Of a stretch of DNA of 64,000 bases, positions 2,785-61,997 are shown in pieces (positions within the stretch are counted from its first letter, which is position 1; each line of letters begins with the position of its first letter). The translations under genes were made by a program, and so were the position numbers. The stretch comes from Arcobacter nitrofigilis DSM 7299. Lineage in GTDB: Bacteria > Campylobacterota > Campylobacteria > Campylobacterales > Arcobacteraceae. Under the pieces are notes generated by a model that worked only from the letters and a program-made list of their open reading frames with translations, did not search any database and was not told the DNA's origin. The stretch lies in contig NC_014166.1 in assembly GCF_000092245.1 (NCBI RefSeq), positions 310,001-374,000 on the forward strand, in the 5' to 3' direction.

Positions 2785-3411
2785 TTGAATATTATAATTT
2801 TAGAAGATGAAGCAATTATGATGATGTTTTTAAAAGACTCCTTAGAGAAAAAAGGACATACTGTAAAAGCTACATTTAATAGTTATTTAGGTTTTTTTGA
2901 ATTTATTGAAAAAGAAAATATTGATTTAGTTTTTATGGATATTTTACTAAAGGGAGCATTAGATGGTACACAAATAGCCAAAAGACTAAGAGAAATAAAC
3001 AAAACCATAAAAATTGTATTTATTACTTCATATAAAGATAGCCAAATTTTACAAATGGCAAAACTTTCAAAACCCAATGGATATCTTATTAAGCCCGTAT
3101 CAAAAGAGGATTTGGAAGCTATTTTGATGGTTTGTGAAACAAATACTGAAATAGAAGAAAATAATGATTATATAACAATAGCCACTTATAAATATCATAT
3201 TATAAATAAAACAGTAGAAGAGAATAATGAGTTAATAAAACTTACAAAAAATGAATTAAAATGTTTTGAGTTATTACTTCAAAATAAAAACACCTATATC
3301 TCTCCTGAAATCTTAATAAATCACTTATGGAATGTGGAGGCATCTATAAAATTTAATTCCTTAAGAGAACTTGTATATAGAATAAGAAAAAACTACCAAA
3401 CTTATATATAG
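2785..3411 (+). CDS. Response regulator, receiver plus OmpR-like winged helix
   Basis: A 208-residue protein. The receiver (about 1-118) shows the acidic pair EDE at 7-9, the phosphoacceptor Asp52 in VFMDILL, the TSYKD segment and the conserved Lys in LIKPVS. The C-terminal part (about 135-208) resembles a Trans_reg_C winged helix, with LTKNELKCFELLLQ and an LREL..RIRKN recognition-helix region. The start is TTG at 2785, because the homology begins there with NIIILEDE. The divergent 7TM-DISM kinase is the likely partner. Target genes are unknown. A GGGG...CCCC hairpin at about 3503-3535 may end the transcript. Confidence 0.87.
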   Translation: MNIIILEDEAIMMMFLKDSLEKKGHTVKATFNSYLGFFEFIEKENIDLVFMDILLKGALDGTQIAKRLREINKTIKIVFITSYKDSQILQMAKLSKPNGYLIKPVSKEDLEAILMVCETNTEIEENNDYITIATYKYHIINKTVEENNELIKLTKNELKCFELLLQNKNTYISPEILINHLWNVEASIKFNSLRELVYRIRKNYQTYI

Positions 3412-3540
3412 ACAATAGTATAAATATAGGCTATATCCTAAAAGATTAATAAAAAACCATTTTCTAACGCCATTCTAATTTCTATGTTATATAAGTATAT
3501 TTTAAGGGGATAGTTTTTTTAAACCCCACTTTAAAGAGGT

Positions 3541-47413: not shown

Positions 47414-48624
47414 TGTTATTAAAAGCCTTTTTAATTGCTATAAAAGAGATAAGAAGAAATATTTTGCGTTCTATTTTAACTGTTTTAGGAATAGTAATAG
47501 GTGTTGCTTCTGTTATTGGTATGGTAATGCTTGGAGATGGAACAACAGCTAGTGTAAAAGCAAATATAGAAAAGCTTGGAACAAATATGCTAATACTTCG
47601 TGTTGGTCAAGAGCGAAGAGGAGGGCCACGAACTGATAATAGTGCAAAACCTTTTAAGCTTACTGATGTAGCTGCTATCAAAAACCAAATAGATAATCTA
47701 AAAGCAGTGGCACCTGATAATAGTACAGGAGTCAATTTAATTTATTTAAATAAAAGTTATACTTCAAGTGTGGTTGGAACCAATAATGATTATTTTGTCA
47801 TAAAAGATTGGAAATTAAAAGATGGAAGATATTTTGATGATAGTGAATTAAATAGTGGGAAATCATCTTGTATTTTGGGTACAACTATTGTAAAACAACT
47901 CTTTGGAGATGAGAATCCTGTGGGTGCAAAAATTAGATTAAAAAGCTTTTCTTGTAATGTTATTGGAGTTTTGGAATCAAAAGGTGCATCAACTTTTGGG
48001 CAGGATCAAGATGAGATAGTTGTTGTTCCTATACGAATGTTACAAAGAAAAATACAAGGGAATAAAGATGTAAAATCAATAGTTATCTCTGTAAATTCAA
48101 ATAAAAATATAAAAAGAGCTAAAGAAGACATAAAACTTTTAATGCAAAATAGAAGAGCTATAAAAGTAGGTGAAAGTGATAACTTTTATATAAGAGATAT
48201 GGAAGACTTACTCTCCTCTATGACTTCAACCACAAAGATGCTTACTTATTTATTGGGTTCAATAGCAGCGATTAGTTTGCTTGTCGGAGGTATTGGTATT
48301 ATGAATATTATGCTTGTATCTGTGACTGAGCGAACAAAAGAGATAGGTATTAGACTTGCAATTGGTGCAATGGAGAGTGAAGTTTTACTTCAATTTTTAG
48401 TTGAAGCCATAGTTTTATCTACACTTGGTGGAATTATTGGGATAATTTTAGGTATTAGTATAGGTTATCTTGGTGTTTCATCTTTTGATTTACCCTTTAT
48501 AATAAATGAAAAAATAATCCTAATTGCCTTTTTATTTTCTACTCTTATAGGAGTTGTCTTTGGATATTTCCCCGCAAGAAAAGCTGCAAGGCTAAACCCT
48601 ATTGATGCCTTAAGATATGAATAA
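47413..48624 (+). CDS. ABC exporter permease, MacB/FtsX type
   Basis: A 403-residue permease with one N-terminal membrane segment (LRSILTVLGIVIGVASVIGMVML), a periplasmic MacB_PCD domain (about 50-240), and three C-terminal segments from LGSIAAISLLVGGIGIMNIMLVSVTERTKEIGIR onward, the FtsX signature. In E. coli MacB the ATPase is fused to this part; here it is separate and overlaps by one base. This mechanotransmission exporter pushes substrates from the periplasm through the TolC-like channel. A siderophore is a reasonable guess from Fur control. Confidence 0.93.
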   Translation: MLLKAFLIAIKEIRRNILRSILTVLGIVIGVASVIGMVMLGDGTTASVKANIEKLGTNMLILRVGQERRGGPRTDNSAKPFKLTDVAAIKNQIDNLKAVAPDNSTGVNLIYLNKSYTSSVVGTNNDYFVIKDWKLKDGRYFDDSELNSGKSSCILGTTIVKQLFGDENPVGAKIRLKSFSCNVIGVLESKGASTFGQDQDEIVVVPIRMLQRKIQGNKDVKSIVISVNSNKNIKRAKEDIKLLMQNRRAIKVGESDNFYIRDMEDLLSSMTSTTKMLTYLLGSIAAISLLVGGIGIMNIMLVSVTERTKEIGIRLAIGAMESEVLLQFLVEAIVLSTLGGIIGIILGISIGYLGVSSFDLPFIINEKIILIAFLFSTLIGVVFGYFPARKAARLNPIDALRYE

Positions 48625-48632
48625 TAAATAAT

Positions 48633-48990
48633 TATTGTAAATAAAAAAGATAAAACAACAAATTATTTAGGTGCATCAGTTGTAACTGCGAGTGTATTAT
48701 TAAGTTCAGTTAGTTTGAATGCTGATTCTTATTCATCAAAATCTAGAGTAGATAGTAATGCTTGGACTATATTTTGTCTGCTTCAGCAGATGAAATAAAT
48801 TATAGAATGAATAAGTAAGCATTCGATAAAATATCTCTTTTAAGCAGAACATTTTATGTTCGCTCTTGCTACCTCAGGAGCTTTAGGTGTAGCACATATT
48901 TTAAAAATACTAAAAGATGAGTTAGAAGTTTCTATGGCACTTACAGGGTGTAAAACCCTTAAAGATATTACAAAAGAGATTTTATATTAG
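48633..48990 (+). pseudogene. Decayed FMN-dependent alpha-hydroxy-acid oxidase (LldD/lactate oxidase-like)
   Basis: Three fragments in different frames make up the 379 bases between the permease and the PepSY gene. At 48633-48764 a secretion-leader-like stretch reads ASVVTASVLLSSVSLNA. At 48765 the frame shifts to DYILSASADEINYRMNK, a stop and AFDKISLLSRT, which match the N-terminal domain of the alpha-hydroxy-acid oxidase family. At 48856-48990 FALATSGALGVAHILKILKD and later ALTGCKTLKDI match the C-terminus. The central roughly 700-800 bases with the FMN site and catalytic His are deleted. Confidence 0.78.
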
Positions 48991-49003
48991 AAAAAGGACT
49001 TAA

Positions 49004-50134
49004 ATGCACAAAAAGTTTTTATTTAAAGTACATATGATTTTAGGTTTAACAGCTGGAGTTATTTTATTAATTATGGGAATAACAGGAGCAATGCTATCTT
49101 ATCAAAAAGAGATATTAAAATATATAAATAAAGATAGTTTTATAGTAGAAGTTCCAAGTACAAAAAGATTATCTGGAAAAGAGATATTAGAAAAATTTGA
49201 GCAAAAATTTCCCGATGCTAAAATAAATGCATTTATTTTTTCTAGTAGTGCAAATAGATCTGTAGTTATTAATGTAAAAGCTAATGGTGAAGGAAAACAA
49301 GCAAGAAGGGGAATAAATTATTATATTAATCCCTATACATCAGAAGTTTTACCAAGCACACAAGGCTATACATTTTTTAAACTTATTGAAAGAATTCATA
49401 GGGGATTGATAATTGGAGAAGTTGGAAAACAAATAAGTGGAATCTGTACTTTTGCACTTTTAATACTTATGTTTAGTGGAATATATGTCTATTGGAAAAG
49501 AATAAAAAATTCATTTTTCAAAAGTTTTACCTTTAGTTTTAAGAATAAAAAAAGAGCATTTTTATCAAATATGCACTTTGCTATTGGTATGTGGGTAATA
49601 CCATTTTATTTGTTATTATGTATTACTGGTGTTACTATGACATATGATTGGGTAAAAGATGGCTTATATAAAGTTTCAGGAGTTGAAAAACCTATACGAC
49701 AAAAAAGAATGCCAGCAGCTAATAATAAAAAAGGTGAAGTTACAGTTTCTATATCAAATGGTGATGTAGAAAAAATAGTTCAACTATTTAATAAAAATGT
49801 CAAAGAGTATGAAAATGCTACTTTACAAATTGGCAAAAAAAGTGATGTAGTAAAAATAAGTTATTTTGCAAAAAATGCAATTCATGATAGGGCAAGAAGT
49901 GAGATAACATTAAATACAAAAACAAATAAAGTAATAAAAGATGATAAATTTGAAGATAAAGCTTTAAATGATAGATTAATGAGAAGTATTATTCCTCTTC
50001 ATACAGGAGAATATTTTGGTCTTTTAGTTCAAGGAATATTAGGAATATCATCCCTAATGATGGTACTATTTACAATAACTGGTTTTATGATGTATTTTAA
50101 AAGAAAAGAGAAAAAATCAGCCAAAAAAATATAA
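49004..50134 (+). CDS. PepSY-associated membrane protein, probable iron/siderophore-reductase type
   Basis: A 376-residue inner-membrane protein with four membrane segments (about 9-30, 145-163, 190-212 and 338-362). A first PepSY domain lies between segments 1 and 2, and a second between 3 and 4. Family signatures include GLTAGVILLIMGITGAMLSY, IHRGLIIGEVGKQISGICT and a C-terminal PLHTGEYFGLLVQ. Histidines in the membrane segments could carry haem, as proposed for iron-uptake PepSY reductases. AAAAAGGAC precedes the ATG. It continues the Fur-associated block; its own promoter is not evident. Confidence 0.88.
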   Translation: MHKKFLFKVHMILGLTAGVILLIMGITGAMLSYQKEILKYINKDSFIVEVPSTKRLSGKEILEKFEQKFPDAKINAFIFSSSANRSVVINVKANGEGKQARRGINYYINPYTSEVLPSTQGYTFFKLIERIHRGLIIGEVGKQISGICTFALLILMFSGIYVYWKRIKNSFFKSFTFSFKNKKRAFLSNMHFAIGMWVIPFYLLLCITGVTMTYDWVKDGLYKVSGVEKPIRQKRMPAANNKKGEVTVSISNGDVEKIVQLFNKNVKEYENATLQIGKKSDVVKISYFAKNAIHDRARSEITLNTKTNKVIKDDKFEDKALNDRLMRSIIPLHTGEYFGLLVQGILGISSLMMVLFTITGFMMYFKRKEKKSAKKI

Positions 50135-50138
50135 TCTA

Positions 50139-50203
50139 ACAAAAAACACCTACTAATTAGCTATTTTTCTTAGTAATATAAATAAAAAACTAGGGAAATA
50201 GCT
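50139..50203 (+). promoter_or_regulatory. phr leader: shared motif plus inverted repeat enclosing the ribosome site
   Basis: ACAAAAAACACCTACTAAT (50139-50157) matches the gpx leader at 17 of 19 positions. It is followed by AGCTATTTTTCTTAG (50159-50173), which pairs with CTAGGGAAATAGCT (50190-50203): 14 pairs, two of them wobble, with one bulge and a 16-base AT-rich loop. The right arm contains the AGGG ribosome site and ends exactly before the TTG start. It may be a DNA operator, an RNA thermometer-like hairpin, or both. Confidence 0.65.
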
Positions 50204-51535
50204 TTGAGACAAATACTTTGGTTCAGACGTGATTTAAGAATTATTGATAATAAAATCTTAGAAAAAGCATCCAATGAAGTACTGCCTATATTTATTTTCG
50301 ATAAAAATATTTTAGAAAAACTAGATTTTGATGATAAAAGGGTTACTTTTATTTATGATGCAGTATTAGCTTTAAAAAAGTCACTCCAAGAGCTTGGATT
50401 AGATTTATATATTTTTTTTGATACTCCTAAAAATGTATTTACAAAATTAAAAAATGAAGGTTTTGATGAAGTCTTATGTTCATGTGATTTTGACTCTTAT
50501 TCGATAAAAAGAGATAAACAGATAAATGAAATATTGCCTTTAAAAAGATATTTAGACTCATTTCTAATCAATCCAAATAAAAACCTGAAAAAAGATGGAA
50601 CACCTTATAAAGTATTTACCCCTTTTTACAAATCCCTATCTTGGTTAACTTCATCAGATAAAATAGGGGAAGCTATGATAAATCCAAATTTAAAGTTAAG
50701 TAAATATGAAAATAAGACTCCTACACTAGACGAGCTAGGATTTGAAAGGGTTACTTTACCAGAGTTTTTAAAAAAATCACCACAAAACAGGCTAGATGAT
50801 TTTAAAGAAAAAGTTAAAGAATATGAGAAAAATAGAGATATATTTTACAAAGATGGAACTTCAAATTTAGGAGTTGATTTAAGATTTGGAACCCTATCAC
50901 CTAGAATGATTTTTAATGAAATAAAAAAATCAGATAAAGAAAATAGTGAAGCTTTTATTAGACAACTTTTTTGGAGAGAGTTTTATAATTATATTTTATT
51001 TCATTTTCCAAATAGTGAAAATGAAAATTGGAATGGTATTGAAATATCTTGGAGTGAAGATGAAGAAGACTTTCAAAAATGGTGCGAAGGAAAAACAGGA
51101 GTACCTATAATAGATGCAGCTATGCGACATTTTAATAAAACAGGTATGATGCACAATCGACTTAGAATGATTGTCTCTTCTTTTTTATGTAAAAATTTAT
51201 TAATTGATTGGAAAAAAGGGGAGCAATATTTTGCAAAAAAGCTACTTGATTATGAGGCAAGTTCAAATATTGGCTCATGGCAATGGGCTGCAAGTACAGG
51301 GGCTGATAGTGTGCCATATTTTAGAATCTTTAATCCATACTTACAATCAGCAAAATTCGATAAAGAAGCTATATTTATAAAAAGTGTAATGCCTGAACTA
51401 AAAGATGTGGATGCTAAATTAATACATATTGAAGGAGCTTTAAAAGACAAATATGTAAATTCAATAGTAGATATTAAGTACTCAAGAGATAGGGCAATGA
51501 GAATTTTTAAAGAGGCAAAAAATGCAAAAGTATGA
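50204..51535 (+). CDS. phr: Deoxyribodipyrimidine photolyase
   Basis: A 443-residue class I CPD photolyase of full length, starting at TTG. The N-terminal photolyase domain begins ILWFRRDLRIIDN (antenna-binding alpha/beta domain), and the FAD domain has SNLGVDLRFGTLSPR, QLFWREFYNYILFHFP, VPIIDAAMRHFNKTGMMHNRLRMIVSSFL and SNIGSWQWAASTGADSVPYFRIFNP. It repairs UV-induced pyrimidine dimers using blue light. It begins a four-gene operon: the next gene overlaps by 14 bases. Confidence 0.96.
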   Translation: MRQILWFRRDLRIIDNKILEKASNEVLPIFIFDKNILEKLDFDDKRVTFIYDAVLALKKSLQELGLDLYIFFDTPKNVFTKLKNEGFDEVLCSCDFDSYSIKRDKQINEILPLKRYLDSFLINPNKNLKKDGTPYKVFTPFYKSLSWLTSSDKIGEAMINPNLKLSKYENKTPTLDELGFERVTLPEFLKKSPQNRLDDFKEKVKEYEKNRDIFYKDGTSNLGVDLRFGTLSPRMIFNEIKKSDKENSEAFIRQLFWREFYNYILFHFPNSENENWNGIEISWSEDEEDFQKWCEGKTGVPIIDAAMRHFNKTGMMHNRLRMIVSSFLCKNLLIDWKKGEQYFAKKLLDYEASSNIGSWQWAASTGADSVPYFRIFNPYLQSAKFDKEAIFIKSVMPELKDVDAKLIHIEGALKDKYVNSIVDIKYSRDRAMRIFKEAKNAKV

Positions 51536-52940
51536 TTTGGCAATAATTGGTTCAGGAATTGGTGGAGCATTAATTGCAGCACTAAATAAAGATAAAAGTC
51601 ATATTCTTTTTGAAAAAGATTCTAATCTTGGAGGATGTGCTAGTACTTTTAAAAGATTTGGAAATTATTATAATACAGGAGCTACAACTTTTGTAGGATA
51701 TGAAGAAAATCATATTTTAAAAAATATGTTTGATAAAATCAAATATGTCCCAAATATCTCTGAATCAAAAATCGCAATAAGAACAATACAAAATAAAAAA
51801 GTAGTAGATAGAGTAAGGGATTTTGAAGAGTTTTTAACACAAATACAAGAAAACTATCCAAATGAAAATAATAGAATTTTTTGGGAAAAAATAAAAGATA
51901 TTGATGAAAAGTTTTGGCAAATCAAAGATATACATTTTGCAAAATATAGTCTGAACTCTTATATAAAATCTTTGAGTACTTTTAAAGATATGATAAAAGT
52001 TTTTAAGCTGGATTTGCTTAAAAGTGCAAGTTCATTTATCAAAGAGACTTTAGGAGAGATAACACAAGGATATCAAAGTTTTATAGATGCTCAACTTCTT
52101 ATTACTGTGCAAAGTAAATCAAAAGATATCTCTTTATTATCTATGGCTTTAGGCTTAGCTTACCCTTTTCATAAAGTATTTTATGTAAATAATGGCATGG
52201 GTTCAATTATAGAAGAGATACTAAAAGAGGTAAATGTTCATAAAAAAGAAGAGATATTAAAAATCAAAAAATCAAAAGATTCTTATGTGATTACTTCATC
52301 AAAAGGTGAATATCAAGCAAAAAAAATTGTACTAAATACAACTGTATATGATAGTAAAAATCTTTTTGGAGAAAAAATAAAAAAATATTATGAAAAGTTT
52401 GAGTTTAGTGATCAAAGTGCTTTTACAAGCTATCTTACAATTAACAGTAAAGAGAAGTTTTTAGACCACTATCAAATCATATTAGAGCCTGATATCCCAA
52501 ATTGTATTTCCAATTCATTTTTTATCTCTTTTTCAAAACTAAGTGATGAGAAAATGAGTCAAAATGGATATAGTGTAACTATTTCAACCCATACAAAAGT
52601 TAGTACTTGGAAAGCCCTATCAAAAGATGATTATAAAAAACAAAAAGAGTTGACACAAAACTTTATATTAGAGCATTTTTTAGATTATTTTGATAACATA
52701 AGTTCAGAACAAATAACAAAAATATTTTCTGCTACTTGTTTGACTTTTCAAAGATTTATAGGAAGAGCAAATTGTGGAGGAAAAGCTTTAAATATAAAGT
52801 CAGCTTTACAAATTCCCTCTTGTAAAACACCTTTTGAAGGTTTATATAATGTAGGAGATACAGTCTTTGCTGGTCAAGGGTGGCCAGGAGTTGCTATAGG
52901 TGTAAATATATTAAATAAGGAGCTAAATGAAAAGCTTTGA
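51522..52940 (+). CDS. FAD-dependent oxidoreductase, CrtI/CrtISO-like
   Basis: A 472-residue flavoprotein. The N-terminal dinucleotide fold is IGSGIGGALIAAL with the second motif NLGGCASTFKRFG, and the C-terminal FAD contact is YNVGDTVFAGQGWPGVAIG, the arrangement of phytoene-desaturase/carotene-isomerase-like enzymes. No carotenoid synthesis genes are in the window, so the substrate may be another lipid or isoprenoid. It overlaps both phr and the kinase gene by 14 bases, which makes one light/stress operon. Confidence 0.85.
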   Translation: MQKYDLAIIGSGIGGALIAALNKDKSHILFEKDSNLGGCASTFKRFGNYYNTGATTFVGYEENHILKNMFDKIKYVPNISESKIAIRTIQNKKVVDRVRDFEEFLTQIQENYPNENNRIFWEKIKDIDEKFWQIKDIHFAKYSLNSYIKSLSTFKDMIKVFKLDLLKSASSFIKETLGEITQGYQSFIDAQLLITVQSKSKDISLLSMALGLAYPFHKVFYVNNGMGSIIEEILKEVNVHKKEEILKIKKSKDSYVITSSKGEYQAKKIVLNTTVYDSKNLFGEKIKKYYEKFEFSDQSAFTSYLTINSKEKFLDHYQIILEPDIPNCISNSFFISFSKLSDEKMSQNGYSVTISTHTKVSTWKALSKDDYKKQKELTQNFILEHFLDYFDNISSEQITKIFSATCLTFQRFIGRANCGGKALNIKSALQIPSCKTPFEGLYNVGDTVFAGQGWPGVAIGVNILNKELNEKL

Positions 52941-53916
52941 ATTACAAATTTCTTATAAAGACTGGCTTTATATAATTATTATAGGAATACTTTTTGGTTT
53001 TTTGATTTCTTTAGTTTTTTATTATACAAATGAAGAGATTAGATATCTCTCAACTATTGCTTTTAGTACTTCATGTGCTTTTTTTATATCTTTCTTTTCT
53101 TTTTTATTTATCTCTATTTCAAATTTTTATATTTTGCCAAATGTTAAAAAAAGATATTGGTATTTTATTAGTTTTATATTCTCTTTTTTAGCTGGGTGGT
53201 GTGGGTTTTCTTTGACTTATATTTTATTTAGTGATAGCTATCCAATAGTAAAATTAATATCACAATATTGGCTAGATATTAGTACAACTATTGGATTATT
53301 AACTTTTTTGATTGGTTTGATATTGCATCAATTTATTTCCATGAAATATAAGAATGAAATAACTCATAGTGAGATATTACAAACAAAATTACAAGCCTTG
53401 GAGGGTGAGTTAAATCCCCACTTTTTATTTAATGCTTTAAATTCTATTTCAGAACTTATATATCAAGATCAAAAAAAAGCAGAAGAATCAGTTTTGAAAT
53501 TATCAAAATTTTTAAGAAATGCCATTACAAAAAAGGGTTTGATTGATTTAAAAAGTGAAATTGATATGTTAAATACATATTTACATATAGAGAATATAAG
53601 ATTTGATAAAAAAATAGTTTTTAATCTAAATTGTGATGAAAAATATTATGATATGCTTTTACCAAAATTTTCCATCCAACTTCTTGTAGAAAATGCAATA
53701 AAACATGGTTTTACAGGGGAGAGTTTGCTTATTGATGTGAATGTAACTGATAAAAAAATAGAAGTAATAAATAGCGGGAAAGTTACTTCTAAAGTTACCT
53801 TTGGAGTGGGATTAAATAATTTGCAAAAAAGATTACAAATACTTAAAATCGGATATTTAAAAAGTTCAATAGAAAATAATAAAATGAAATTTACAATATA
53901 TAGGAGTAATAGATGA
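52927..53916 (+). CDS. LytS/YpdA-like sensor histidine kinase
   Basis: A 329-residue kinase with four hydrophobic segments (about 12-33, 40-68, 80-103 and 118-138) and almost no extracytoplasmic loop, so it senses something within or near the membrane. The His_kinase domain has GELNPHFLFNALNSISELIY (the conserved His after NP) and LVENAIKHG in a short HATPase with GVGLNNLQKRL. This class normally pairs with LytTR regulators, and such a gene overlaps by four bases. It overlaps the FAD oxidoreductase by 14 bases. Confidence 0.93.
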   Translation: MKSFELQISYKDWLYIIIIGILFGFLISLVFYYTNEEIRYLSTIAFSTSCAFFISFFSFLFISISNFYILPNVKKRYWYFISFIFSFLAGWCGFSLTYILFSDSYPIVKLISQYWLDISTTIGLLTFLIGLILHQFISMKYKNEITHSEILQTKLQALEGELNPHFLFNALNSISELIYQDQKKAEESVLKLSKFLRNAITKKGLIDLKSEIDMLNTYLHIENIRFDKKIVFNLNCDEKYYDMLLPKFSIQLLVENAIKHGFTGESLLIDVNVTDKKIEVINSGKVTSKVTFGVGLNNLQKRLQILKIGYLKSSIENNKMKFTIYRSNR

Positions 53917-54623
53917 AAGTAATGATAGTAGATGATGAAAAGCTAGCTCTTAGTAGATTAACAAGACTTCTAAATGAAGAAGGAATAAAAGATATTGTAA
54001 GTTTTGATTCTCCAAGTCTTGCTTTAGTAGAGGCAACAAAGAGTAAGTTCGATGTAGTATTTTTAGATATTTCAATGCCACAAATGAATGGCTTGGAACT
54101 AGCTAATGTTATTTTATCTATGGAACCTAAAACTTTTATTGTATTTCAAACAGCATATAGTGAGTATGCAATAGAGGCTTTAAAAATTGGTGGAATAGAT
54201 TATTTAATGAAACCAATAGAGAGTGATGATATAAAAAGAGTACTAGAAAAAATAAAAAGTTTTAAACAATCAAATGAAGCTAGTGATGAAAAACTTTTAG
54301 GGAAAAGGGGAAATAAAATATATTTAATCAAACTTGATGATATATATTTTATAAAAGCAGATCTTGATGAGGTGCTTGTTCGTATAAAAGATGCAGATGT
54401 ATATGTAAAAAGAAAAATTGGGGATTTAGAAAAACTTTTAGATAAAAAGAAGTTTTTTAGAATACACCGCTCAATTATTGTAAATGTGGACAAAATAAAA
54501 TCAATGGAGAGTGTAGAACAGTCAAAATTGACTATTAGCTTTGAAAATATCGATTCAGTGGTTACAAGTTCAAAAGATGGAGCAAAAGAGTTTAGAGAAT
54601 ATTTAGAAAGAAGAAGTCTTTAA
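53913..54623 (+). CDS. LytTR-family response regulator
   Basis: A 236-residue regulator. The receiver has VDDEKLALSRL at the N-terminus, phosphoacceptor Asp52 in VVFLDISMPQMNG, QTAYSEYAIEAL and YLMKPI. The LytTR DNA-binding domain runs from about residue 133 to the end, with IYFIKADLDEVLVR, FFRIHRSIIVNVDKI and a terminal REYL. It is cotranscribed with its kinase and lies just upstream of the gpx operon; the phr and gpx leaders share a motif that is a candidate binding site. Confidence 0.94.
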   Translation: MKVMIVDDEKLALSRLTRLLNEEGIKDIVSFDSPSLALVEATKSKFDVVFLDISMPQMNGLELANVILSMEPKTFIVFQTAYSEYAIEALKIGGIDYLMKPIESDDIKRVLEKIKSFKQSNEASDEKLLGKRGNKIYLIKLDDIYFIKADLDEVLVRIKDADVYVKRKIGDLEKLLDKKKFFRIHRSIIVNVDKIKSMESVEQSKLTISFENIDSVVTSSKDGAKEFREYLERRSL

Positions 54624-54627
54624 ACTG

Positions 54628-54688
54628 ACAAAAAACGACTACTAATCCTTTTATTTTGATGATAAGATTTCTAAAATAGAAGGATTAG
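54628..54688 (+). promoter_or_regulatory. gpx leader: shared motif plus 16-bp inverted repeat enclosing the ribosome site
   Basis: ACAAAAAACGACTACTAAT (54628-54646) matches the phr leader at 17 of 19 positions. CTAATCCTTTTATTTT (54642-54657) pairs fully, with one wobble, with AAAATAGAAGGATTAG (54673-54688) around a 15-base loop. The AAGGA ribosome site lies in the right arm, which ends one base before the ATG. Confidence 0.7.
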
Positions 54689-54689
54689 C

Positions 54690-55223
54690 ATGAAAAAATT
54701 ATTATCAATACTGCTTTTTTTTATTCCAATATTAGGAATCTCACAAACATCAATTTATGATTTTAAAGTTAAAACAATAGACAATAAAGAGATATCTTTA
54801 TCAAAATACAAAAATAGAGTTATGTTAATAGTAAATGTTGCTAGTAAATGTGGTTTTACTTACCAATATGAAGGTTTAGAAAAATTGCATGAGAAATACT
54901 CTTCAAAGGGTTTAAGCATCTTAGGTTTTCCTTGTAATCAATTCTTAAATCAAGAACCAGGAACAAATGAAGATATAAAAGAGTTTTGTTCTTTGACTTA
55001 TCAAGTGAAGTTTGACATGTTTTCAAAAATAGATGTAAACGGAGATGATGCTTCACCTTTATATAAATATTTAAAATCATCTCAATCGGGACTATTTGGT
55101 ACTGGCATTATAAAATGGAATTTCACAAAATTTTTAGTTAATAGAGATGGAAAAGTAGTAAAAAGATACTCTCCTTCAACAAATCCAAGTGAAATTGAAG
55201 ATGATATAAAAGAGTTATTATGA
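54690..55223 (+). CDS. Periplasmic glutathione peroxidase-family thiol peroxidase
   Basis: A 177-residue protein with a signal peptide (MKKLLSILLFFIPILGISQ). The catalytic Cys54 lies in VASKCGFT, and the Gln/Trp partners are seen in GFPCNQFLNQEPG and IKWNFTKFLV; the second Cys in GFPC may be the resolving residue, as in thioredoxin-dependent members. It reduces peroxides, including lipid peroxides, outside the cytoplasm. First gene of a three-gene operon, overlapping the next by four bases; the start lies one base after a hairpin holding its ribosome site. Confidence 0.93.
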   Translation: MKKLLSILLFFIPILGISQTSIYDFKVKTIDNKEISLSKYKNRVMLIVNVASKCGFTYQYEGLEKLHEKYSSKGLSILGFPCNQFLNQEPGTNEDIKEFCSLTYQVKFDMFSKIDVNGDDASPLYKYLKSSQSGLFGTGIIKWNFTKFLVNRDGKVVKRYSPSTNPSEIEDDIKELL

Positions 55224-55675
55224 AAAAATACGAAAAAACATCACTCATCTCCTGTACATTAGATGAATTATTTGAGTTTCATTTAGATTCAAATAACATA
55301 AAAAAAATTACCCCAAAAGATACAAAAGTAGAACTCCTTAGTAAAGATTTTGTACCAAGTGAAGGCAAAGTCTTAAAAATAAAAACTACAAAATTTTGTA
55401 TACCAACTTTATGGGAAGTTGAAATTAGTTTGATAAAAAAACCAAGTATGTTAGTTGATACAGCAGTTCAGTCACCCTTTGAGTTTTGGAGACATTCTCA
55501 TATCTTTACAAAAAAAGGAAATGTTTGTGAATTAAAAGATGTGATTGAATATGAAATGCCATTTGGTTTTATAGGAAATATTTTTTCTACTTTTATGGAA
55601 AAACAACTTGATAATATGTTTTCATATAGACATAAACAAACAAAATTGATATTAGAAAAGAAGGATGAAGCTTGA
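55220..55675 (+). CDS. SRPBCC-superfamily (START-like) protein
   Basis: A 151-residue protein that begins KKYEKTSLISCTLDELFEFHLDSNNIKKITP, the usual helix-grip start of the polyketide cyclase/SRPBCC group, and has the strand pattern TLWEVEI...FEFWRHSHIF...VIEYEMPFGFIGNIF. It binds a hydrophobic ligand in a deep pocket. Similar genes occur in photo-oxidative stress clusters next to photolyase, though their role is not settled. It is coupled by four-base overlaps to gpx and hemH. Confidence 0.82.
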   Translation: MKKYEKTSLISCTLDELFEFHLDSNNIKKITPKDTKVELLSKDFVPSEGKVLKIKTTKFCIPTLWEVEISLIKKPSMLVDTAVQSPFEFWRHSHIFTKKGNVCELKDVIEYEMPFGFIGNIFSTFMEKQLDNMFSYRHKQTKLILEKKDEA

Positions 55676-56604
55676 AAAAAGCAGTAGTGCTCATGAATAT
55701 GGGTGGACCAAATAATTTAGATGAAGTAAAAGTTTTTTTGACGAATATGTTTAATGACAAATATATAATAGGTGCACCACAGCCTATAAGAGCTATGATA
55801 GGATTTTTGATTACAAGTATGAGAAATAAAGAGGCTAAAAAAAACTACGCTTTACTTGGAGGAATGTCTCCAATAGTAGGTCATACCAAAAGACTTGTAA
55901 GAAGGTTAAATGAAAGAATAGAAGATAAGGATGTCTTTTATGCCATGAGATATACTCCACCTTTTTCAAAAGAAGTAGTAAAAGAGCTAAAAGAGTATGA
56001 TGAAATTATTGCTTTTCCTATGTATCCACATTACTCTAGTACAACTACAAAATCTTCAATTGAGGATTTTGAAAAGGCTTTAAAAAAGGCAAAAATAAAT
56101 ACTCCTGTTAAGACTATAAATAGTTATTATGACAATGAAAAATACAATAAAGTAATAGTTGAAAGAATAAAAGAGAGATTAAATGGTGATAACTCAGAAG
56201 AGTTTGAATTGGTCTTTTCTGCTCATGGACTTACCCAAAGAGTTATTGATAAAGGTGATTTATATCAAAAACATATTTTAGCAAATGTTGAATGTGCAAA
56301 AAAAGAGTTAGAAAAACAAGGAATAAAATTCAAAGATATCCATGTAGCTTATCAATCAAGACTTGGACCTATGGAGTGGCTTAGACCTTATATGGATGAT
56401 AAGTTAAGAGAACTTGGAGATAAAGTTTTAGTCTATCCTATCTCATTTACAGTAGATAATTCAGAAACAGAATTTGAACTTGTAATGGAGTATAAAGAGA
56501 TAGCTGATGAGGTAGGAATAAAAGATTATAGAGTTGCCCGTGCTCCAAATCATCATCCACTTTTTATGGAAGCGTTAAGTGAGCTTTTTGAGCAGGCAGT
56601 ATAA
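55672..56604 (+). CDS. hemH: Ferrochelatase
   Basis: A 310-residue ferrochelatase starting at TTG (AAGGA upstream, overlapping the SRPBCC stop). The N-terminus KAVVLMNMGGPNNLDEVKVFLTNMFND is the family signature. Catalytic residues are found in YPHYSSTTT, FSAHGL (the invariant His), YQSRLGPMEWLRP and the acidic NSETEFELV. It inserts iron into protoporphyrin to make protohaem. Coupling to peroxide-stress genes could limit photosensitising porphyrin build-up in light; that is inference. Confidence 0.95.
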   Translation: MKKAVVLMNMGGPNNLDEVKVFLTNMFNDKYIIGAPQPIRAMIGFLITSMRNKEAKKNYALLGGMSPIVGHTKRLVRRLNERIEDKDVFYAMRYTPPFSKEVVKELKEYDEIIAFPMYPHYSSTTTKSSIEDFEKALKKAKINTPVKTINSYYDNEKYNKVIVERIKERLNGDNSEEFELVFSAHGLTQRVIDKGDLYQKHILANVECAKKELEKQGIKFKDIHVAYQSRLGPMEWLRPYMDDKLRELGDKVLVYPISFTVDNSETEFELVMEYKEIADEVGIKDYRVARAPNHHPLFMEALSELFEQAV

Positions 56605-56605
56605 A

Positions 56606-58141
56606 TTACTTGTAAAAAAGTTTTATAATACCTGCTAAAAATAATACTAAAGCAAAGCTTTTTAAATCTTTGTCATACAAAAGAATAAAAAAGCTAGATA
56701 GAATTAGAATTAAAGAGTTTGTGATTCCTTTTACATAACTTTTTAACTCTTTTGCTAAATACTCAATTTGATTATTTGAAACTTCAATTTGTAAAGTTCC
56801 CTCACTAGCTTTTTTTACTACATCCTTTAACTCTTTTACAAAAAATGGTAAATCTTTTACTTCATCAATAATTGTCTCCGTTATTGTATCTTTTGCCCCA
56901 AGGGCTTTTGGAAGATTATTTTGCAAGATTGGTAGGATGTCTTTTATTCCATTGAAATTTTCTATATAAGTAGTCCCTAAACCTTCCACAATAGCACTAA
57001 CTCTTAAGATATAAATAGCATCACTTGGTAGTTTAAAAGGCATATTTCTAGTTGTTTCTAAAATCTCAAAGGCAAGTTTTTGCATAGATTCACTACTTAA
57101 ATTATCATTTGAAAATATATCAAACATATTTGAGGTAAACTCTGCAAGTTCTGAAGTAGGAGCTTCATATGATATGGTTCCAAGTCTTTTACTAGCAGCA
57201 ATATAGAGTTCATAATTTTGTTCATTGGCTGCTTTTATTAACTCAATTATTGCTATTCTTTTATCATTTGGTACAGTTTTTACCATCCCAAAATCAAGTA
57301 AAATAAGCTCACCTTTTTTATTTACAAGTAAATTCCCAGGATGGGGATCTGCATGGAAGTATCCATTTATAAGCATTTGAGTAGTATAAAAATCGACTAA
57401 TTTTGCAATAATATTTTTAAAGTCAATTTTGTGTTTAAAGATATTTTCTTTATCATCAAATCTAAATCCTTCTTCATAACTCATAACAATAGCATCATCA
57501 CTACAATACTCTTCATATGGTTTAGGAAACTTTATACCACTATTCTCATATACATGGGAAAATTTTTTTAGATTTGCTAACTCTTTATTTAGTGAAACTT
57601 CTTCTTTAATCATCTTTGAAAACTCAACAATAACAGCTTCTATAGAGTTTTTAGTATAATGTGAAAATAAAGGTTTAAATAAAAAATTAAAAAAGCTTAT
57701 GATTTTTATATCAGCTAAAATTTGTTTTTTTATGCCATCTCTTCTTAATTTTACAGCAACTTTTTCTCCACTATTTAAATATGCCACATGAACTTGTCCA
57801 ATAGAAGCAGAAGCTATGGCTTTTTTATCAAAGCTTTTGAAAGTAAGATCTTTAAAGGCCTTATTATAAATCTTTTCATAACTTTTTTCATTCATTGGTG
57901 GGATTTGGTCATGGAGGTTTTTTAACTCATCAAGATAATCTTTTGAAAAAAAATCAGACCTAGTAGCCAATACTTGAGCTAGTTTTATAAAACTAGCCCC
58001 AAGTTTAACAATAGTATTTTTTAAACTTTTTGGTTTTAGTGGTTTTAAAAATAAAAAGCTCTCTTTTCTTTTTATAACTAAATAGATTGTTAATAAAAAG
58101 AAAAATACACTTAGTATTCTTTTTGGTGAATAATTATTTAT
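56606..58141 (-). CDS. AarF/ABC1/UbiB-family kinase-like protein with no canonical start codon
   Basis: About 511 residues if read from an ATA at 58141. The first ATG/GTG/TTG in frame is the TTG at 57970, but that would cut the N-terminal family motif: KLAQ (53-56, the KxGQ position, here with Ala for Gly) and an upstream membrane segment (about 9-23) are open in the same frame. Other motifs are IASASIGQVHVAYL (Ala-rich loop), YFHADPHPGNLL and LLDFGM. The frame is -1 to the preceding phasin-like gene, at a TTTAAAA heptamer next to its stop, with AGAGGA just before. Either AUA initiation or frameshifting is possible. UbiB proteins support quinone or lipid metabolism. Confidence 0.88.
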   Translation of the reverse strand: MNNYSPKRILSVFFFLLTIYLVIKRKESFLFLKPLKPKSLKNTIVKLGASFIKLAQVLATRSDFFSKDYLDELKNLHDQIPPMNEKSYEKIYNKAFKDLTFKSFDKKAIASASIGQVHVAYLNSGEKVAVKLRRDGIKKQILADIKIISFFNFLFKPLFSHYTKNSIEAVIVEFSKMIKEEVSLNKELANLKKFSHVYENSGIKFPKPYEEYCSDDAIVMSYEEGFRFDDKENIFKHKIDFKNIIAKLVDFYTTQMLINGYFHADPHPGNLLVNKKGELILLDFGMVKTVPNDKRIAIIELIKAANEQNYELYIAASKRLGTISYEAPTSELAEFTSNMFDIFSNDNLSSESMQKLAFEILETTRNMPFKLPSDAIYILRVSAIVEGLGTTYIENFNGIKDILPILQNNLPKALGAKDTITETIIDEVKDLPFFVKELKDVVKKASEGTLQIEVSNNQIEYLAKELKSYVKGITNSLILILSSFFILLYDKDLKSFALVLFLAGIIKLFYK

Positions 58142-58401
58142 TTTAAATCCTCTTTTAATTTTTCTAAATCCTCTTTTGTAGCAAGTCCTAGTTCATCAAT
58201 TACTTCTTTTAAGATTCTTTTTATTTCATCTTTTGCTTTTTGTTCTTCGTCTTTACCTTTTTGTTCAAGGGATTCTAAAAAGCTTTTTGCATCATCTTTT
58301 TTTAATTTACCTTTTTTTTCTAAGGCTTTTATCTCTTCTTCAACTTTTTCCCTAATAACAGCTGCTGCACCAAAGCCAGTATTTAATAATTCTTTTAGCA
58401 T
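58138..58401 (-). CDS. Phasin-like coiled-coil protein
   Basis: An 87-residue, highly charged helical protein: MLKELLNTGFGAAAVIREKVEEEIKAL... then lysine/glutamate heptads to the end, of the PHA-granule-associated/PhaF-like type. The hydrophobic GFGAAAVI patch could touch a lipid or granule surface. A gene of this kind is often found beside UbiB genes. Its stop codon overlaps the start region of the UbiB gene, and the last sense codons form U UUA AAA, a -1 slippery heptamer. It follows thiD after 80 AT-rich bases. Confidence 0.75.
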   Translation of the reverse strand: MLKELLNTGFGAAAVIREKVEEEIKALEKKGKLKKDDAKSFLESLEQKGKDEEQKAKDEIKRILKEVIDELGLATKEDLEKLKEDLK

Positions 58402-58481
58402 TTTGATATCCTTTTTTATTTTTAGATTTCTATTATTATATAATATAATACAATAGTATATGCATTGGTAGCAAAAAAATG

Positions 58482-59252
58482 TTAATTAATAATTTCTCCT
58501 GCTACCTTATGGGCGATTGGGCCTTTCCCTGAACCTAAACTTGGAGCATTTTTTATTGCATGAAAAATAAATTCTTTTGAGATACTAATTGACTCCTCAA
58601 GTGTTTTCCCAAGAGCTAGATTTGCAGCAATTGCACTTGAAAAACTACAACCTGTTCCATGGGTATTTGAGGTATCTATAAAATCAGATTGAAAAATCTT
58701 TTTTTGCCCATTTTTGTAAAATAAAGTATCTATAGAGACTTTTTTATTATCTATTTGTTGGGTATGATTTTTTATTAAAATTTCACAAGGTATATTAATA
58801 ATTTTCTTTAAAGCATCATTTCCAAAAAGTTCTTTTGCTTCATATAAGTTTGGAGTAGTAACTTTTGAATATGGAAACAGAGTTTTTAAATTTTCAATTG
58901 CATCTTCATTTAAAAGTTTTGAACCAGCTTTTGATATAAAAACAGGATCAAATACTATAGGAATATTTAAATCTTTTATAGAGTCTCTAACTACATCAAT
59001 AATATCATTTGAAAAAAGCATTCCAATTTTTATGCAAGCTACATCAAAATCATCTAAAACTGCATCGATTTGGTCTTTGATAAAAGATGGACTTACTTCT
59101 TGAATATTTGTTACACCTTTTGTATTTTGAGCAGTTAAAACAGTAATCACACTACAACCAAAAACACCAAATGCCTCAAAGGTTTTTAAATCAGCTTGAA
59201 TACCTGCTCCTGCACTACAATCACTTCCTGCTATTGTTAATACTACTTTCAA
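58482..59252 (-). CDS. thiD: Hydroxymethylpyrimidine/phosphomethylpyrimidine kinase
   Basis: A 256-residue ribokinase-like enzyme of thiamine synthesis that phosphorylates HMP and HMP phosphate. Signatures are TIAGSDCSAGAGIQADLKTFEAFGVFG at the N-terminus, IKIGML, FDPVFISKAGSKLL, TPNLYEAKELFG and the anion-hole GTGCSFSSAIAANLALG with the catalytic Cys region. It is full length. It diverges from the MCP gene at 59427 and may be cotranscribed with the phasin-like and UbiB genes. Confidence 0.95.
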   Translation of the reverse strand: MKVVLTIAGSDCSAGAGIQADLKTFEAFGVFGCSVITVLTAQNTKGVTNIQEVSPSFIKDQIDAVLDDFDVACIKIGMLFSNDIIDVVRDSIKDLNIPIVFDPVFISKAGSKLLNEDAIENLKTLFPYSKVTTPNLYEAKELFGNDALKKIINIPCEILIKNHTQQIDNKKVSIDTLFYKNGQKKIFQSDFIDTSNTHGTGCSFSSAIAANLALGKTLEESISISKEFIFHAIKNAPSLGSGKGPIAHKVAGEIIN

Positions 59253-59426
59253 TTTACTTCCTTTAAATGTTTTCTAATTCTACTGAATTTATCATTATGT
59301 TAGGAAAAGAAACAATAAAAGTAAAAGAAGCATAGTAAAGATAATAATTAAACTTATTTTAATAAAAGGAAGGCTTTTTATGTTACAATTTAGTTACAAA
59401 TTATGAAGAAGATAAAAGGGGATTGA

Positions 59427-61997
59427 ATGTTAAAATCATTGTCGATAAAAGCAAGGCTTTTACTTATAGTTATAAGTTCTATAGTTATTGTTTCTGCCGT
59501 TATGCTTGCACAATCGGTAATTTCTTTACAGGAGACATCGGCAACTGTAATAGAAAAGTTTAAACAAAATGCTTATGCTACAAAAGAAGAGGAACTAAAA
59601 AACTATGTTTCCTTAGTTATGAAAACAGTAGAGTCTTACTATGCAAGAACAGCCCCTGAAAAAATAAAAGTTGAAGTTCAAGCTAGACTAAAAGAACAAA
59701 CTGAATTTATGTTATCAATCATGCAAGGGGAGTATGACAAGTATAACGGAAAAGTACCTGAAGATGAATTGAGAAATATCATTAAAACTTCAGTACAAAA
59801 AGCAAGATACGGAAGTACAGGATATTTTTGGATAAATGATTTAGATGCAAAAATTATCATGCACCCAATAAAACCAGCTTTAGATGGTAAAGATATGTCT
59901 GAGTATAGAGATAAGGGTGGGAAAAGAATTTTTTATGAATTTGCACAAGTTGCAAAAAAATCAGGTTCTGGATTTGTTGATTATGTTTGGCCAAAGCCAG
60001 GTTTTGAAAAACCTCAAGAAAAGGTATCTTTTGTAAAACTTTTTGAACCCTTTGGTTGGGTTATAGGTACTGGTGAATATGTTGATAATGTAACTGATAA
60101 ATTAAAAAAAGAAGCACTAAACGCAATATCACAAATGAAGTACGGTAAAGCTGGTTACTATTGGATTAATGACTCAAATCATGTAGTAGTAATGCACGCA
60201 ATGAAACCATCTTTAGTGGGTAAAGATATGTCTGATTTACAAGATCCAAAGGGTAAATACATATATCGAGAAATCGTTAAAACAGCTAATGAAAAAGAAG
60301 AGGGTGGCTTGGTTAAATATATGTGGCCAAAACCTGGTAAGAAGCTTGATCAACCTAAATTTTCATATGTTCAAAGATTTGCTCCTTGGGATTGGATTAT
60401 TGGAACAGGTGCATATGTAGATGATATTGAAGATAAAATTTTACAAATGCATGATGAAACAGAAGCTCAAATAGAAGCGGTGATTATAAGAAATTGTGTA
60501 ATTATTTTTGTTATTATGGTTATCTTAGCAATAGTTATGGGTATGTTATCTAATAGATCTATTTTTGTGCCTTTAAATAAATTCCAAGATGGATTATTAG
60601 GATTCTTTAGATATTTAAATAAAGAGCAACCTGATGTTGATAATCTTGATGATTCAGCAAATGATGAAATTGGAGCGATGGCAAAAATTATAAATCAAAA
60701 TCTAGGAAAAACAAAATCTTTAATTAAACAAGATGATGAATTAATTCAAGATGTCACAAGAGTAGTTGGAGAGATAGAAAAAGGGTATTTATTTAACAGA
60801 GTTGAGAAAAGAACAGAAAATGAGTCTTTACAAAAACTTCAAAATAAACTAAATGAAATGTTAGATAATCTTGAGACTAATATTGGTAAAGATACAAATG
60901 TTATTTTAGATTGTTTATCAAAATATGGAAAACTTGATTTTAGAGATAATATACAAAATGCTCAAGGAAAAGTTGAAGTAGCAATAAATGAGTTGTCGGA
61001 TATTATTAATAATATGTTAAAAGAGAATAAACAAAATGGTTTAACATTAGATGCAAGTTCAGATATTCTACTTAAAAATGTTGATACTTTAAATAAAAAC
61101 TCTACTTCAACTGCTGCTTCATTGGAAGAAACAGCAGCAGCACTAGAAGAGATAACTTCTGCAATTGTTAGTAATACAAATAATATTTCTACAATGGCAA
61201 TATATTCTGATGAATTGGTTGATTCTATTAATTTAGGTAAAACTTTAGCTGAGTCAACTGTTGTTGCGATGGATGAGATTAATAGTCAAACAGAAGCAAT
61301 TGCTGATGCAATTGTATTAATTGATCAAATAGCCTTCCAAACAAATATTTTATCTTTAAATGCAGCTGTAGAAGCTGCAACTGCAGGTGAAGCTGGAAAA
61401 GGATTTGCTGTAGTTGCCCAAGAAGTTAGAAATCTCGCATCAAGAAGTGCGGATGCTGCAAAAGAGATAAAAGCTTTAGTAGAAAATGCAACACAAAAAA
61501 CAAATGCAGGTAAAGAGGGAACTGATAAGATGATTAAAGGTTATGAGACCTTACATTTAAATATCAAAAAAACAACAGAAACTATACAATCAATTGCTGA
61601 ATCATCAAAAGAACAAAGAGCAGGTATCGAGCAGATAAATGATGCAGTAAATAGATTAGATCAACAAACACAAGAAAATGTTTCTATATCTAATACTACA
61701 CATGCAATTGCAGTTGAAACTGATGAGTTAGCTAAACTTATTGTTACAGTTACAAATGAAAAAGAGTTTAGAGGTAAAAATGATTTGAAAGCAAAAATTT
61801 CAAATTATGAAACACCAAAAGTTACTATACCTGCAAAAAAAGTAGAAGTGAAAAAAACAGAAGTAAAAAAAGTGGAAAAGCCTTCTGATACAAAAAAAGA
61901 AGTAAAACGTGAAGATAGTTCTAAAATAGAATCTAAACCTAAAGTTGAAATAATCAAAAGTCAAAGTTCTTCTGATGATGAATGGGAAAGTTTCTAA
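59427..61997 (+). CDS. Methyl-accepting chemotaxis protein with tandem sCache domains and a CheR-type C-terminal pentapeptide
   Basis: An 856-residue transducer. Membrane segments lie at about 10-30 and 350-372. Between them are two consecutive sCache_2-like domains with repeated signatures ([20 protein letters not shown] and [20 protein letters not shown], each ending WPKPG ... GTGxYVDxx), evidently an internal duplication. The signalling tip is [20 protein letters not shown] Lys/Val/Glu-rich tail of about 60 residues ends DDEWESF, matching the xWxxF tether for CheR/CheB. The ligand is unknown; sCache_2 receptors often bind small carboxylates. Confidence 0.93.

Follow-up and report, generated by a model that had tools for sequence, protein, structure and literature searches.

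Two similar 19-mers lying upstream of phr and gpx in a 64,000-nucleotide (nt) stretch of the Arcobacter nitrofigilis DSM 7299 chromosome (NC_014166.1, positions 310,001 to 374,000, forward strand; hereafter the window) are likely to be operator copies of the LytS/LytTR two-component system encoded between them, whose regulator would bind these sites and activate a photo-oxidative gene set. The 19-mers, ACAAAAAACACCTACTAAT at 50139-50157 and ACAAAAAACGACTACTAAT at 54628-54646 (both on the + strand), share 17 of 19 positions and end 46 nt before the TTG start of phr (50204) and 43 nt before the ATG start of gpx (54690), as the initial annotation had reported. Also as reported, the LytS/LytTR pair lies inside an operon; its genes phr, oxr, the histidine kinase (HK) gene and the response regulator (RR) gene overlap head to tail. 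The placement of the motif thus held, but its extent did not, each 19-mer being the 3′ part of a larger element of ~29 nt, of which the window contains a third copy (58463-58491, − strand) overlooked beside the two claimed sites.

The ~29-nt element and the genes that it precedes

The element was defined on 60 regulator loci of the family Arcobacteraceae, where it consists of TATAAACTRACA, 9 nt and TACTAAA, followed after 15–16 nt by a TATAAT-like hexamer. At these loci copies recur ahead of phr, gpx and the SRPBCC gene, and other promoters close by carry it too. The genes that it precedes are the same in Arcobacteraceae and in other members of Campylobacterales, and it is conserved at orthologous promoters throughout the family and in the order. 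A 29-nt matrix built from 42 other sites, with the two window sites excluded, gave the highest scores in the window to 50130-50158 (27.4) and 54619-54647 (22.3), followed by the third site (17.2) and then by a score of 10.2; top scores in 12 shuffled windows ranged from 8.8 to 16.2. The third site lies barely above the best shuffled window, and orthologues of the 87-amino-acid (87-aa) gene behind it also carry sites.

A model of 44 sites that included both window sites (R2) placed these first in the whole genome (E values of 2.4e-7 and 1.8e-6), ahead of a site at genome positions 1641793-1641851 (− strand, E 0.0033) before SDR-SnoaL-MFS genes and one at 1639303-1639354 (− strand, E 0.024) before lipocalin-FAD oxidoreductase-DUF1365-CFA synthase-DUF3833-PdxH-EAL genes, the next match having an E value of 0.39. 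Across the 104 family genomes, a sequence-only model of 24 sites trained only inside the family (R1; E values from such models are rough) gave strong matches before oxidative or light-damage genes. Twenty-six of 41 selected R1 matches preceded one of nine gene types, namely SDR (7), lipocalin (6), 87-aa phasin-like (5), renalase-like (2) and epimerase-DUF2867 (2) genes, with a single match before each of oxr, hemH2, DUF523/DUF1722 and a second photolyase gene.

When R1 was applied to 20 more distant regulator loci (3 of the family's distant genera g15 and g20, the other 17 from beyond the family), 10 of them yielded a total of 13 matches at E<0.05 for 230 kb. Most of these matches preceded oxr, hemH, an SRPBCC gene, DUF523, phr or a phasin-like gene, and the rest had no such gene nearby. 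At 16 of the 20 loci, oxr, HK and RR are grouped on the same strand; the exceptions have oxr on the opposite strand (L220, L221), phr-DUF523 and no oxr (L222) or the regulator only (L228). No phr or oxr homologue lies beside the regulator at 77 of 79 distant LytTR loci.

The second ferrochelatase gene, hemH2, which Arcobacteraceae carry in addition to a housekeeping one and mostly in regulator-bearing genomes, provided a control by gene movement and by paralogue. Upstream regions were scored with a matrix of 22 sites, none of them a hemH site. In regulator-bearing genomes, each of the 22 hemH2 promoters that stand alone scored between 6.4 and 23.1, above every one of 25 control regions, which comprised 8 housekeeping hemH genes (−17.4 to −2.0) and 17 in-operon hemH2 genes following the SRPBCC gene (−9.8 to 4.9). 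The element is therefore a feature of the promoter and accompanies the gene when it is moved.

The candidate regulator and its mode of control

The LytTR regulator was found in 72 of the 104 family genomes (E≤1e-20) and in 70 of 398 order genomes (E≤1e-40), 35 of them outside the family. Strong R1 matches (E<0.01) occurred in 47 of the 72 family genomes with the regulator versus 3 of the 32 without it, counts that are uncorrected for relatedness, and in 27 of 51 versus 3 of 32 when the genomes of the training sites were left out. Of the 73 genomes that encode a LytTR domain at all, 71, among them this one, gave exactly one LytTR match. The oxr gene and the regulator occurred together in 70 of the 104 genomes, each alone in 2, and neither in 30.

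In the mechanism that we propose, the phosphorylated regulator would bind the ~29-nt element at about −55 to −28 and, once bound, would stand in for the −35 element, activating a σ70-type promoter that has only a −10. The right half-site occupies the −35 position and reads CTACTA/TACTAA, matching TTGACA at 2 of 6 positions, which suits an activator replacing the −35. A scan for consensus promoters listed no + strand promoter within 50130-50203 or 54619-54689. CTGACA was considered as a σ70 −35 and rejected, because the conserved −10-like hexamer sits 31 nt further on. The predicted regulon of this genome is the regulator's own operon phr-oxr-HK-RR, whose inclusion would make the system autoregulatory, together with gpx-SRPBCC-hemH2, the SDR operon and the lipocalin-oxidoreductase-DUF1365-CFA synthase-DUF3833 operon; the 87-aa gene probably belongs to it as well. 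This gene content points to a photo-oxidative stress response, and the products would repair light-damaged DNA, remove lipid peroxides, modify membrane lipids and, through the second ferrochelatase, use up protoporphyrin, a photosensitiser whose level such an enzyme would lower.

Several observations weigh against this interpretation. In the available text of PMC11347149, the normal LytTR site is described as two 9-bp repeats that lie 10–13 bp apart. In the element, the block TATAAA on the left and the block TACTAA on the right lie 21 bp apart, start to start, a spacing that would fit the canonical LytTR repeat geometry, though repeat similarity at lags of 21, 17 and 13 did not exceed a column-permutation null. 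Fifteen of the 41 R1 matches lay before other genes, inside genes or without a near gene, thiD and pyruvate kinase accounting for 2 each. Two of the 32 regulator-less genomes have oxr, and one of these (G085, L320) has only the right half of the element before it. The regulator-less G066 keeps a site (E 6.4e-5) before an open reading frame (ORF) for a predicted membrane peptide of ~37 aa (L189), and the sites before hemH2 in the regulator-less G047 and G049 score 18.1 and 12.5 (−0.9 in G044). Sites in such genomes may either be left over from a regulator since lost or point to a second reader.

Some further sites are recorded here as observations in their own right. G058 (L321) carries a site similar to that of G066, and the ~37-aa membrane peptide is a possible small target protein. 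In genus g17, both G084 and G085 keep oxr without a LytTR regulator, which offers a natural experiment on other control of oxr; no site was found in G084 (L319). Two related genomes (L163, L164) have an operator-like site ~100 nt before pyruvate kinase.

Activation is probably the mode of control. That the LytTR regulator instead binds the element as a repressor and is released by the signal is the most credible of the alternatives, yet we regard it as unlikely. The right half-site extends over the −35 position, and CoxC, a LytTR protein whose operator likewise overlaps the −35, is described as a repressor (PMC11347149), a precedent that counts against activation. On the other hand, no −35 can be recognised in the promoters themselves, either in the half-site or in the consensus scan, which suits activation, and most LytTR regulators activate, as far as the same source goes (PMC11347149).

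It is improbable that an unlinked transcription factor reads the element, with the LytTR operon merely one of its targets. The few LytTR-less genomes that retain sites would fit such a factor, but the association of the element with the LytTR protein is strong, the retained sites may be relicts, and G047 and G049 are fragmented assemblies.

The initial annotation had proposed either the LytTR regulator or an alternative sigma factor as the reader of the motif, and only the former part of the proposal gained support. A promoter read by an extracytoplasmic function (ECF) sigma factor, on the model of the RpoE-ChrR response to photo-oxidative stress, would be in keeping with a gene set that resembles ChrR-dependent and blue-light regulons. 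We consider it very improbable, however: this genome gave no match to ECF region 4 (Sigma70_r4_2, PF08281) at E≤1e-5 and none to the ChrR-type cupin (Cupin_7, PF12973) at E≤0.001, and the element is two-part and lies ahead of a σ70-like −10. ECF region-4 matches are present in 47 of the 104 family genomes.

The genome-wide search suggested by the initial annotation returned, as exact 19-mer matches in the whole 3.19-Mb genome, only the two window sites. At up to 3 mismatches it gave 78 matches (39+39) versus 74 (36+38) for the reversed control pattern; because these counts are about equal, the 19-mer alone marks no larger set of sites, and it was rejected as a genome-wide mark. When the intergenic segments of the window were shuffled, 3 of 20 shuffles gave at least one pair alike at 17 or more of 19 positions with at least 5 G/C in both members, and in the pattern search 37 of 100 shuffles showed at least two matches at up to 3 mismatches. 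By itself the 19-mer pair is thus modest evidence, unusual and not extreme. We judge it real because of its conservation, including the ranking by the leave-out matrix; a chance likeness between AT-rich intergenic sequences, for which the control counts and the shuffles speak, has a negligible probability in the face of cross-genus conservation and is refuted by the hemH2 promoter scores and the leave-out matrix.

Inverted repeats over the ribosome sites

Inverted repeats (Table 1) cover the Shine-Dalgarno sequences of phr and gpx. Of 37 promoters, 23 have an inverted repeat (p≤0.01 when compared with shuffled versions of the 5′ part) in which the Shine-Dalgarno or start region pairs with a 5′ arm placed between the operator and the predicted transcript start or straddling that start. 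By gene, such stems were found for phr (3/3), gpx (3/3), SRPBCC (16/17) and SDR (1/1), and for none of the hemH2 (0/11), lipocalin (0/1) or 87-aa (0/1) promoters. The arm sequences differ from gene to gene; the SRPBCC stem of genus g2 seemed to vary too little to allow a covariation count. Among the genes of the window, 4 of 23 had a repeat at p≤0.01, and scores of at least 25 were reached only by phr and gpx. The association of stems with promoters lying behind a co-directional gene was not significant (8/37 versus 0/15, p 0.087), with three sites uncounted: L225 was left out, L231 was too short and the L113 locus has no ORF downstream. No terminator-like sites were found in 49900-58600, and Rfam gave no match at gathering scores in 48500-60000.

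The predicted unpaired probability of the Shine-Dalgarno sequence was 0.00–0.20 in RNA beginning 150 nt upstream versus 0.18–0.86 in RNA beginning at the predicted start for 13 of 15 leaders, the opening being less clear in the lipocalin and 87-aa leaders. Because the stretch that would pair with the ribosome site lies upstream of the predicted start, read-through RNA would be locked, making a translation lock on such RNA possible at phr and gpx. In the resulting double gate, read-through mRNA would bury the ribosome site in a hairpin, whereas mRNA from the regulated promoter, without the 5′ arm, would be translated. We offer with some reserve the wider suggestion of an order-wide photo-oxidative regulon of Campylobacterales, which would be run by one membrane LytS-type kinase and a LytTR regulator that is mostly the only one in the cell, with phr, gpx and the SRPBCC gene doubly gated by the read-through hairpin. 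Promoter-dependent hairpins are described for I-TevI, soc and e of phage T4 and, in the available text on them, sequester the ribosome site only in upstream-started transcripts (PMC2988022), as is predicted here. Unlike those of phage T4, the present hairpins lie at bacterial chromosomal promoters and are predicted only, and the transcript starts, placed near 50185 and 54674 (±3), are predicted rather than mapped.

Genes of the locus and related systems

The RR and gpx genes are separated by 66 nt, and gpx, the SRPBCC-like gene and the ferrochelatase gene overlap. The two domains of the regulator score well above their cut-offs (PF00072, 88.4 bits, cut-off 30.2; PF04397, 77.1 bits, cut-off 22.6), and the BtsR equivalog model (NCBIfam NF008677) gives 122.4 bits, below its cut-off of 246. 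The LytTR recognition motif FhRhHRS, as given in the available text of PMC4227749, reads FFRIHRS in this regulator; the two recognition segments, FFRIHRS and SSKDGAKEFREY, hardly vary among 80 orthologues. Sequence comparison matched the LytTR domain to AgrA structures, 3bs1 and 4xqj among them (E about 0.002). The membrane part of the kinase has conserved positions and matched no named domain.

Table 1. Predicted features of the phr–gpx locus (window coordinates; functions of promoter features are predictions)
Feature	Position	Strand	Basis or remark
Operator-like element before phr-oxr-HK-RR	50130..50158	+	Contains 50139-50157; orthologous sites in G032, G033
−10-like hexamer TAATAT, 16 nt after right half-site	50174..50179	+	Sequence; conserved columns in A1/A2; function putative
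Inverted repeat AGCTATTTTTCT / AGGGAAATAGCT	50159..50203	+	Pairs phr Shine-Dalgarno with sequence upstream of predicted transcript start
phr, DNA photolyase, TTG start	50204..51535	+	Pfam PF03441, PF00875
oxr, CrtI/CrtD-like FAD/NAD(P) oxidoreductase	51522..52940	+	Domain match; co-distributed with regulator
Membrane LytS-type histidine kinase	52927..53916	+	His_kinase PF06580
LytTR response regulator	53913..54623	+	Receiver and LytTR domains; only LytTR protein of the genome
Operator-like element before gpx-SRPBCC-hemH2	54619..54647	+	Contains 54628-54646
Inverted repeat 54642-54657 / 54673-54688	54642..54688	+	Covers gpx Shine-Dalgarno, overlaps operator end
−10-like hexamer TAAGAT, 16 nt after right half-site	54663..54668	+	Sequence; A1/A2; function putative
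gpx, glutathione peroxidase family	54690..55223	+	Domain match
SRPBCC/polyketide-cyclase-like protein	55220..55675	+	Weak Pfam match
hemH2, second ferrochelatase	55672..56604	+	Paralogue at genome G000:C1:777296-778213
87-aa phasin-like protein gene	58138..58401	−	NCBIfam phasin-related, below cut-off
Third operator-like element, before 87-aa gene	58463..58491	−	Matrix ranking; orthologues have sites too

The proposed regulator shares with AgrA, BtsR and CoxC the LytTR DNA-binding domain, the FhRhHRS motif and, by prediction, sites at or near the −35, and differs from them in its target genes and, for BtsR, in scoring below the family model. The CFA-synthase-type gene found here presumably resembles UfaM of Pseudomonas. 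In the available description of the Vibrio cholerae blue-light response, which involves ChrR and a MerR-like regulator, photolyase/cryptochrome genes and CFA synthase are induced (PMC5241685), and the present set likewise combines photolyase-type genes with CFA synthase. In contrast to that response, the sole candidate found here is the LytTR two-component pair, the genome having given no ECF or ChrR match. The Pseudomonas LitR/PplR light operon, as far as it is described in the available text of PMC9758184, encodes a photolyase, a short-chain dehydrogenase, an FAD oxidoreductase and the furan-fatty-acid enzyme UfaM. The first three have counterparts in the present regulon, which would be controlled by a LytTR protein and a membrane kinase, unlike the MerR-type LitR and the LOV photoreceptor of Pseudomonas (PMC9758184).

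Full-text searches found no paper on this regulon; subscription papers were mostly beyond reach, and an account may be in print elsewhere. The analysis supplies a testable regulator and operator for defence against light and singlet oxygen in a group without one in the papers searched, and it suggests that a LytTR two-component system can take charge of a gene set that is under ChrR or LitR elsewhere.

Elsewhere in the window, the 24-nt intergenic sequence CATTTTCTAACGCCATTCTAATTT occurs at 2681-2704 and 3458-3481, flanking a response-regulator gene (2785-3411). With four genome copies at up to 3 mismatches and none for the reversed control, it looks like another operator.

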